Virus record (IMG/VR): IMGVR_UViG_3300027971_000011
Coordinates: 1-33,527 of that record
DNA length: 33,527 nucleotides
Direction: 5' to 3' (one strand)
Source: a virus
In this document: in pieces, positions 31,872-33,038 of the stretch
Layout of the letters: the number at the start of each line of letters is the position of its first letter
How positions within the stretch are numbered: position 1 is the first letter of the stretch
Made by a program: the position numbers and the translations under genes
The notes under the pieces: model-generated
Database searches by the model: none
Seen by the model: the letters and a program-made list of their open reading frames with translations, nothing else
What the model was told of the DNA's origin: nothing

Positions 31872-31890
31872 GGGCTTCTATCTTGTTCAT
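31642..31890 (-). CDS. Alternative overlapping frame, hypothetical
   Basis: 82 residues in another frame of the same DNA. Its N-terminus KIEAHELLTRRRRGEPCLPS then EIDKALFLTGDL resembles small phage proteins ending in the phrase ALxxTGDL, and its ATG makes a perfect ATGA overlap with the previous gene. The rest does not look conserved. Either a second product, a frameshifted N-terminus, or a coincidence. Confidence 0.4.
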   Translation of the reverse strand: MNKIEAHELLTRRRRGEPCLPSEIDKALFLTGDLRGTLEFVGERVENPLHETNQPHWETQSIDLVARYSRINGEEAWESLCG

Positions 31891-32243
31891 TTGTTTAGCA
31901 TCCTGTTAATGTAATCACGAACCGATGACGGCATGGGCGCAACATTCTTTGAATCTTCCTCAATCTTTGCTAGTGCTGGGTCTTTGAAGTTGACATTGAC
32001 GTTTACAGTCATTTCAGGCACTTCAGCACCATCCCAACGCATTTGGTTGATGTAGACCAAGGGTGCTGGAATAAAGTCCCCATTTGCCTTCTTCCATTGG
32101 TCTGTTGTCTGCATCCATGTTACGTGCTTAATAATTTGGTCGGCTTGCAAGTCTAGTTTTAGTTTGTCCCACTTTGCTTTACATTGGGCTTTACCACCTT
32201 TTCTAGTGCTTTTAGGCCATGCTGTCCAGAACTCTTCAAACAT
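31887..32243 (-). CDS. Replication-initiation/helicase-loader-associated protein
   Basis: 118 residues from the ATG at 32243, chosen for the ribosome site AAAGGATAACA; an earlier ATG at 32261 overlaps that site. FEEFWTAWPKSTRKGGKAQC then KWDKLKLD and the later FIPAPLVYINQMRWDG are typical of the C-terminal module of phage replication proteins linked to replisome organisers. It lacks the N-terminal DNA-binding domain. It could recruit host helicase to the iteron region. Confidence 0.7.
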   Translation of the reverse strand: MFEEFWTAWPKSTRKGGKAQCKAKWDKLKLDLQADQIIKHVTWMQTTDQWKKANGDFIPAPLVYINQMRWDGAEVPEMTVNVNVNFKDPALAKIEEDSKNVAPMPSSVRDYINRMLNK

Positions 32244-32245
32244 TG

Positions 32246-32428
32246 TTATCCTTTCGGGCATAGTTTCTCCAAGGGTGGATAGAACCTATTTCTATCCTTC
32301 CCGCTCCAGACTTCATTGTGTTCATCTTGACTCCTATTGACATTGAAATAACAAAAAGCCCCAAGTGCGCTTGACGGGTTTGTTCGCTTATAAATATGGC
32401 CTTGTTTACCACCGATGAACCATATCCT
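32246..32428 (-). pseudogene. Downstream part of an interrupted gene (conserved-looking)
   Basis: 60 residues from codon 32426-32428 with no ATG, beginning RIWFIGGKQGHIYKRTNPSS and ending NRFYPPLEKLCPKG; it ends 2 nt before the next ATG. It is in frame with an upstream stretch (to about 32548) containing TPCEKCDQRWFGDW, separated only by TAA at 32429-32431. Good composition on both sides suggests one zinc-ribbon-type protein cut by a nonsense codon, or a real stop with an unusual downstream start (AAAGGA lies before ATC at 32414-32416). Confidence 0.45.
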
Positions 32429-32547
32429 TTACCAGTCGCCAAACCAACGCTGGTCGCATTTTTCACAAGGGGTGTGCTTGTGTGCGGTGTTTCTTGACTT
32501 GTCAACCCATGCAGGTTCAGTTACGTATCGTGAGTCAAACGGCTGAA

Positions 32548-32656
32548 ATGAAAAACAAAAAAGCCCCTTACAACTGCCCTCGGTGGAAACCCTTCGATTT
32601 AAACCAAGGGCGAGAGCATGTGTAAGAGGCTTCATCTGTTGTTTTCCACGACAACG
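32548..32656 (-). ncRNA. Candidate structured small RNA
   Basis: Minus-strand transcript predicted from about 32656. It folds as a 5-bp 5' hairpin (32651-32655 with 32638-32642), then a 12-bp stem (32621-32632 with 32561-32572, one G-U) enclosing an 8-bp stem (32604-32611 with 32576-32583, one T-G wobble) and a 20-nt loop, then a T-rich tail (TTTTTTGTTTTT) as in an intrinsic terminator. A perfect sigma-70-like promoter sits before it. An ORF (32635-32429) crosses it but the complementarity argues against coding here. No RNA family recognised. Confidence 0.6.
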
Positions 32657-32662
32657 GATCGG

Positions 32663-32690
32663 ATTATATATGAATTCTAGGAAGTGTCAA
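32663..32690 (-). promoter_or_regulatory. Consensus sigma-70 promoter
   Basis: TTGACA (32685-32690), 16-nt spacer, TATAAT (32663-32668), all twelve positions consensus, on the minus strand. Predicted start near 32656. It is embedded in the last codons and stop of the gene ending at 32664 and drives the structured RNA and possibly the replication-type cluster beyond its terminator. Confidence 0.8.
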
Positions 32691-33038
32691 ATTGTCCCCA
32701 AATCTTGATGGATATTTCAGAAAATCGTATGCACCTAGTCTGGCACAAGTTTGCTTTAAGTCTTTACCATCGTAGAATTCAGTCGTAGTGCCGTTGCTCA
32801 TTTTGGTAGGGGTTGCCACGTTCTTTTTCTCATGTAGTGCCGCCAATCCATATCCCGTGATATGCCATGTATCCTCAATGTTTACAACATAGCCAAAGTT
32901 CTGCAAGTCATTAAGGTAATTCTCAAAATGAACGCTCACATTGCCCACATTCTGATCTCCATGCGTAAATGATTTCAATGGGCTAGGCTGGTGTTCTAGC
33001 CTTCTGAGCATTTGCTTATGATAAGTCTTTAGGTACAT
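32664..33038 (-). CDS. Winged-helix-like hypothetical protein
   Basis: 124 residues. First 75 read as helices and a wing: HKQMLRRLEHQPSPLKSFTH, ENYLNDLQNFGYVVNIEDTW, HITGYGLAALHEKK. C-terminal part (DGKDLKQTCARLGAYDFLKY) is unplaced. AAGGAG before ATG. Possibly a transcription factor acting on the divergent region upstream; its last codons contain the consensus promoter. Confidence 0.65.
   Translation of the reverse strand: MYLKTYHKQMLRRLEHQPSPLKSFTHGDQNVGNVSVHFENYLNDLQNFGYVVNIEDTWHITGYGLAALHEKKNVATPTKMSNGTTTEFYDGKDLKQTCARLGAYDFLKYPSRFGDNLTLPRIHI

Follow-up and report, generated by a model that had tools for sequence, protein, structure and literature searches.

In phage lambda, the Q-controlled leader (6S RNA, tR') has a constitutive promoter and a short terminated RNA, with the operon lying beyond. 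To our knowledge, this leader holds no structured, covarying RNA. In the case of IsrK, part of the transcripts pass the terminator of the small RNA, and the terminated short RNA binds to these longer ones (PMC4825925). In the CI system of phage P4, one RNA segment has two complementary sites (seqA and seqC) in the same leader (PMC4825925). Here we describe a viral locus that is compared with these systems. The locus lies in a stretch of DNA of 33,527 nucleotides (IMG/VR record IMGVR_UViG_3300027971_000011, positions 1 to 33,527), hereafter called the window.

A first-pass annotation made from the letters of the window had claimed a perfect sigma-70 consensus and, framed by this promoter and a terminator, a structured, phage-encoded RNA about 105 nt long. 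The consensus was confirmed and was placed on the minus strand, which had been left unstated. The perfect TTGACA-N16-TATAAT is the sole instance in the window (0.04 expected; present in 4 of 100 shuffles), and it overlaps the last codons and the stop of the upstream ORF 32664-33038. Seven bases past the -10 box the predicted RNA (RNA1) starts, opening with GUUGU...ACAAC (5 bp). Across the RNA1 relatives the distance from the end of the -10 box to GUUG is mostly 6-9 nt, and a promoter match of at least 9/12 was found upstream of 113 of 135 RNA1 copies, compared with 22 of 1245 random positions. The claimed terminator also stood: among the 105 genuine RNA1 copies found without the tail as a search criterion, all had at least four U after P2 and 103 had at least five. 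The remaining 10 of the 115 pattern hits had neither the whole structure nor the 3' strand and were counted as chance. A 109-nt stretch folded at -47.5 kcal/mol (z -6.2), a stability equalled in 0 of 200 shuffles. Taken together, the results showed that the locus encodes a predicted discrete ncRNA of about 90-105 nt with a sigma-70 promoter, and the claim of a structured RNA of this kind held in every test. The features are collected in Table 1.

Table 1. Positions of the predicted features of the locus in the window
Feature	Position	Strand	Basis or remark
Sigma-70 promoter	32663..32690	(-)	-35 TTGACA 32690-32685; -10 TATAAT 32668-32663; 16-nt spacer
RNA1 5' end	predicted start 32656/32655	(-)	at P1
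RNA1, whole ncRNA	32557..32655	(-)	93.5 bits; 3' end in U-run 32562-32557
P1 hairpin	32638..32655	(-)	stem 32655-32651 with 32642-32638; alignment
P1 loop GUGGAAA, pseudoknot 5' strand	32643..32649	(-)	pseudoknot columns 100% paired
P2 5' strand (terminator stem)	32621..32632	(-)	pairs with 32572-32561
P3 and P4	32576..32617	(-)	P3 32617-32611 with 32582-32576; P4 32610-32606 with 32594-32590
UUUCCAC, pseudoknot 3' strand, between P4 and P3	32583..32589	(-)	
P2 3' strand and U-tract (intrinsic terminator)	32557..32572	(-)	pairing, tail conservation
Spacer past terminator	32535..32556	(-)	about 20 nt, between RNA1 U-tract and RNA2
RNA2, second conserved structured RNA	32255..32541	(-)	up to just before replication gene start
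Downstream ORF, replication initiation protein (phrog_9474)	31887..32261	(-)	
Overlapping 68-aa ORF	32429-32635	(-)	very probably no gene

The alignment showed that the predicted terminator stem P2 encloses P3, P4 and the pseudoknot, with P1 at the extreme 5' end. P2 is a 12-bp stem, AAGCCUCUUACA/UGUAAGGGGCUU, running into a run of six U (32562-32557), and the P1 hairpin has an invariant C at 32650. The P3 pairing GCUCUCG/CGAGGGC and the P4 hairpin are kept in relatives; upper P3 and P4 were assigned by visual inspection of the alignment, and the lowest P3 pairs are included in the pairing count given below. The first description had a hairpin set of 5, 12 and 8 pairs, of which the first two were borne out. 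The 8-pair stem, probably GCCCUUGG/CCGAGGGC, did not survive, being unconserved in relatives and absent from their conserved structure. Missing from that description was the pseudoknot, in which the P1 loop GUGGAAA pairs with UUUCCAC.

The sole named phage record with RNA1 is MW202484 (Manatee Spring), with 71-75% identity. Peptide and pattern scans of IMG/VR gave further loci, at least 150 and well over that number, and 135 distinct RNA1 sequences were taken from these loci, among the matches listed. The scan patterns were without the pseudoknot 3' strand, and the broad pattern held nothing 3' of the 5' strand of P2. Since the patterns never required the pseudoknot 3' strand, the pairing result for the pseudoknot is not circular. 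Every one of the 135 distinct RNA1s had a perfect match of 6-9 bp between the P1 loop and the junction strand, and the pseudoknots fell into 25 sequence types, which by this comparison is more than descent alone would explain. In an alignment of 36 diverse members, 98.5% of the cells in the nested helices and the pseudoknot were paired, compared with 85% in shuffles (0 of 500 as high) and 35-56% in slid versions, all cell counts being inflated by the relatedness of the sequences. The pseudoknot had 100% of its aligned cells paired, with both-side changes in five of seven pairs, and P2 had 99.8% of its cells paired, with compensatory changes in five pairs. The sequence of P1 and P2 is conserved across relatives, and that of the pseudoknot, P3 and P4 is variable. 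In MW202484, loop and junction strand changed together, being GUGGAAA/UUUCCAC in the window and GUAACGGU/ACCGUUAC in MW202484. The covariation check in related phages that had been suggested for the stems thus found paired changes, and the changes in relatives were not of the protein-conserving kind that had been named as evidence against a structured RNA.

No Rfam match at the gathering threshold was found for the window and 14 relatives, and a relaxed search of the region (E≤10) gave chance-level hits alone, far below gathering scores. The RNA1 family is absent from Rfam, in agreement with the earlier remark that it belongs to no named family, and an earlier description elsewhere is conceivable, for example in the candidate-RNA catalogue of 2017 (NAR, 224 motifs) or as Burkholderiales-1 of 2010, which PMC2864571 lists with no Rfam accession.

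The carriers of RNA1 are well over a hundred uncultured viruses of bacteria, mostly freshwater; in isolate phages and in the genomes of bacteria RNA1 is almost never found. Among about 85,000 bacterial species genomes it was found on two short MAG contigs only, from a Comamonadaceae bacterium and a beta-proteobacterium, and in one bacterial family it was found in 1 of 401 genomes; a host prophage element was rejected on these counts. A tyrosine integrase was found in 0 of 26 records, compared with detection in all 14 control genomes, a result that speaks against a temperate life as far as the tyrosine type of integrase goes, in records that may be fragments. From the distribution in MAGs and bacterial genomes and the integrase result, we infer that the hosts are probably aquatic Burkholderiales and that the phages are probably non-integrating. 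Each of the 25 genuine records had a single strong RNA1 match (one further record, a chance pattern hit without the RNA, was left out). A regulon with several RNA1 copies per genome was rejected, as the weaker second hits were on the reverse strand at the same place.

Conservation extends about 280 nt beyond the RNA1 terminator, as far as the start of the replication gene. In the window's class of RNA2, the class in which covariation was tested, RNAalifold on 36 members gave 37 pairs, 31 of them with both-side changes. Since the single-sequence fold of RNA2 has a z of 0 despite this covarying alignment, folding energy is no guide for RNA2. The loop of its first hairpin apparently forms a pseudoknot of its own. 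Nearly all of 127 loci have one of about eight classes of downstream module at most about 20 nt from the U-tract, and the gap between RNA1 and RNA2 is too small for a separate RNA2 promoter. At some loci further RNA modules lie between RNA1 and the downstream module; the extra modules at L069, L173, L101, L197 and L212, between RNA1 and RNA2, are RNA-like and closed by a long stem. The 121 proteins downstream of RNA1 fell into 52 clusters, and the neighbours, identified by eye from the cluster sequences, include replication-initiation genes, a RusA-type resolvase, terminase, and capsid and scaffold genes. As tRNAs occurred in only 3 of 135 RNA1 contexts, a tRNA-associated island was rejected. 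Of the phages of L137 and L080, one has six tRNA genes no more than 1.2 kb from RNA1, and in the other RNA1 follows a tRNA-Met at about 50 nt.

Other RNAs were observed in this set of loci. After an HTH-like ORF, a different and larger RNA occupies the RNA1 slot on the same plan (L048, L053, L054 and L058-L062), with a promoter, a 5' hairpin with a GUGGCA loop and a terminator-closed stem, and with a matching UGCCA in L048 and L054. Directly after the HTH-like ORF at L025-L047 and L049, another leader RNA lies between promoter and replication gene; it has a GGCUAG...CUGCC core and a variable pseudoknot, such as CACCUU/AAGGUG, and no Rfam match in those scanned. In the RNA2 class with ATGCGGTACGTC (L102, L089, L260 and others), a phage-specific direct repeat of about 8 nt has one copy within the RNA and the second at the 3' edge beside the ribosome binding site.

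The P1 loop was also found to fit the spacer past the terminator. GUUUUUCAU (32556-32548) is complementary to the loop over 9 bp, two of them G-U, and in the window this alternative pairing (32649-32641 with 32556-32548) is the one preferred in the minimum-energy fold. Phage by phage, the duplex of a loop with its own spacer had a mean energy of -6.90, compared with -5.63 (sd 0.17) after shuffling (0 of 300, z -7.5) and -5.95 (sd 0.15) after shuffling within RNA2 type (0 of 300). When each loop type was counted once, the own spacer fitted better in 22 of 26 types (Wilcoxon p 1e-4) and not better in the other 4. Also at one count per loop type, loop complementarity in sequence windows other than the spacer was not significant; those downstream of the spacer had no loop signal, bar a weak one at 110-132 nt (z -2.5), and the sense-strand control had no signal like that of loop and spacer. 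The strongest of the other RNA1 segments against the spacer was nt 34-44 (z -2.0). RNA1 showed no general complementarity to the next 350 nt, the first 22 nt or so alone showing it. Antisense targeting inside the phage loci was rejected, with 56 loop complements against 59 expected; this count covers the phage side of what an Hfq-type antisense sRNA, with an exposed and conserved seed for mRNAs, would show. L103 and L114 are nearly identical, yet loop and internal strand changed together between them and the spacer did not, indicating that the internal pairing is strict and the spacer pairing lax. Taken together, the comparisons showed that the P1 loop has a putative second, phage-specific partner in the spacer, found only in the readthrough RNA.

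We propose, tentatively and with confidence just short of even, that the locus is an attenuated phage leader in which a short and a readthrough RNA would be coupled by one loop with two competing partners, a function that we infer from the sequence comparisons. One promoter would give two RNAs: most transcripts would end as stable RNA1, and a minority would continue into RNA2 and on into the gene that follows, which in the window is the replication initiator. The P1 loop would have two choices: pairing with its internal partner, which gives the RNA1 fold, or pairing with the spacer, the latter within the readthrough RNA itself (in cis) or by a separate RNA1 molecule (in trans). It would so couple both forms. 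Such a switch may tune the folding, processing or use of the transcript of RNA2 and the gene. Since the spacer is transcribed only past the terminator, loop-spacer pairing comes too late to decide whether that same molecule terminates. We favour this coupled leader because IsrK and P4 CI are precedents for pairing by a readthrough RNA. Against it, action in trans would need the P1 loop to be freed from a perfect pseudoknot of 7-9 bp, and the cassette precedes different genes across phages, which would also fit a purely trans-acting RNA. Of the two functions guessed in the first-pass annotation, regulation of host genes and an attenuated leader for the replication cluster, the leader fits better: a replication-initiation gene and RNA2 lie directly downstream in the window, but in other phages the cassette is followed by other genes.

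The main rival, which we regard as somewhat unlikely, is that RNA1 stands alone as a structural RNA acting in trans, a very stable decoy or scaffold for a host or phage protein, with contact through the conserved sequence of P1 and of P2 and the internal loop, and with RNA2 being separate, as in a tRNA array. This would agree with the single copy per phage (25 of 25 genuine records), the varied neighbours, the own promoter and terminator with P1 at the 5' end, and the conserved P1 and P2 beside a variable pseudoknot, P3 and P4. It is also consistent with the adjoining tRNA cluster at one RNA1 copy and with the lack of excess loop complements elsewhere in the phage loci, which gives no sign of mRNA targeting there. 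However, such an RNA predicts neither the loop-spacer complementarity nor the fixed tandem of RNA1 and RNA2 with no promoter between them.

By an improbable further reading, lytic phages would have a compatibility or superinfection system built of RNA only, with RNA1 conferring its specificity. The loop types, at least 25, would then be recognition groups, matched to the internal strand and mostly to the own spacer, and the RNA1 of a resident phage would act only on leaders of its own type. If this were true, RNA1 and the exchangeable RNA2 modules would make up a hitherto undescribed RNA operon, modular and mobile. Similarly doubtful is that RNA1 is a short terminated operon leader switched on by processive antitermination, in which a Q/N-type phage protein, or RNA2 in cis like the HK022 put RNA, would let the polymerase pass this and later terminators. 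In HK022 the put RNA alone suppresses termination (PMC9378689), and the strong promoter, the universal terminator and the large structured RNA immediately downstream, followed by replication genes, would suit such a leader. Since RNA2 sits past the RNA1 terminator, however, it could act on later terminators only, and the covarying pseudoknot would be superfluous in a plain leader.

It is very improbable that RNA1 is a terminator-embedded riboswitch like HMP-PP (thiS), whose ligand would alter the pseudoknot and hence the terminator: while the aptamer-like pseudoknot within a terminator and the competing structures have a precedent (PMC6478431), RNA1 has few conserved unpaired bases, its pseudoknot sequence is free to vary, and there is neither a shared pathway among the downstream genes nor an Rfam match. 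There is next to no chance that ORF 32429-32635 is a real gene with a fold over its coding sequence by chance: although it covers RNA1 and a CDS is annotated at the same place in MW202484, this protein-coding explanation was rejected because RNA1 lengths differ between relatives by numbers not divisible by three, which breaks the frame, and it is further opposed by the compensatory changes and by the lack of a matching protein family. Given these frame-breaking differences, the 68-aa ORF and the hypothetical CDS in MW202484 are very probably not genes, and the early view that the overlapping ORF is likely untranslated was upheld, the base pairs covarying while the frame is broken. In MW202484.1 (33533-33892; L002 2868-3227), the annotation of a hypothetical protein, UOF77725.1, overlaps both RNA1 and RNA2; this gene call is probably spurious.

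With RNA1, a family of pseudoknotted RNAs that Rfam lacks gains strong support from well over a hundred uncultured phages, and its terminator is always kept. That a single loop has two competing, co-varying partners gives rise to a concrete hypothesis, ready for mutagenesis, on how RNA may control a phage operon, and suggests a kind of RNA switch in the gene control of phages that has not been described so far. The catalogue of loop types offers a route to a direct test of RNA-based self/non-self discrimination by phages. Next to RNA1, the locus further brings to light another large covarying RNA and several modules that are exchangeable.

Among the known systems, the HMP-PP (thiS) riboswitch resembles RNA1 in having a terminator stem with an embedded pseudoknot (PMC6478431); in contrast, RNA1 lacks both a conserved pocket and a pathway common to the downstream genes, its pseudoknot being variable and its downstream proteins spread over 52 clusters among 121. 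The HK022 put RNA is, like RNA1, a structured RNA that opens an early phage transcript (PMC9378689), but put suppresses termination and RNA1 ends in a terminator, and RNA2 is the better analogue of put. The lambda 6S/tR' leader shares with RNA1 the order of constitutive promoter, short terminated RNA and operon. The CI immunity RNA of satellite phage P4 and the c4 RNA of P1/P7 (RF01695) are like RNA1 in having a two-site segment and replication genes downstream, and the P1 loop likewise fits two sites, the internal strand and the spacer. CI arises by processing of a leader and works in lysogens, while RNA1 has its own terminator and no tyrosine integrase was found in its phages; the c4 (RF01695) model had no match in the window, the 14 relatives or the region at E≤10. 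With IsrK of the Salmonella prophage Gifsy-1, RNA1 shares a phage promoter and a short RNA with an intrinsic terminator (PMC4825925), with no Rfam match that would place RNA1 in the IsrK family. IsrK differs in its longer pairing with orf45 beside an antirepressor gene and in its temperate prophage, whereas RNA1 has a spacer partner of about 9 nt beside a structured RNA, a covarying pseudoknot, and phages without a tyrosine integrase. What is IsrK-like in RNA1 is that a short terminated RNA has a complement in the part of its transcript that only readthrough would produce. By these analogies, the logic of the coupled leader that we favour would be that of IsrK or P4 CI, with RNA1 apparently a member of neither.
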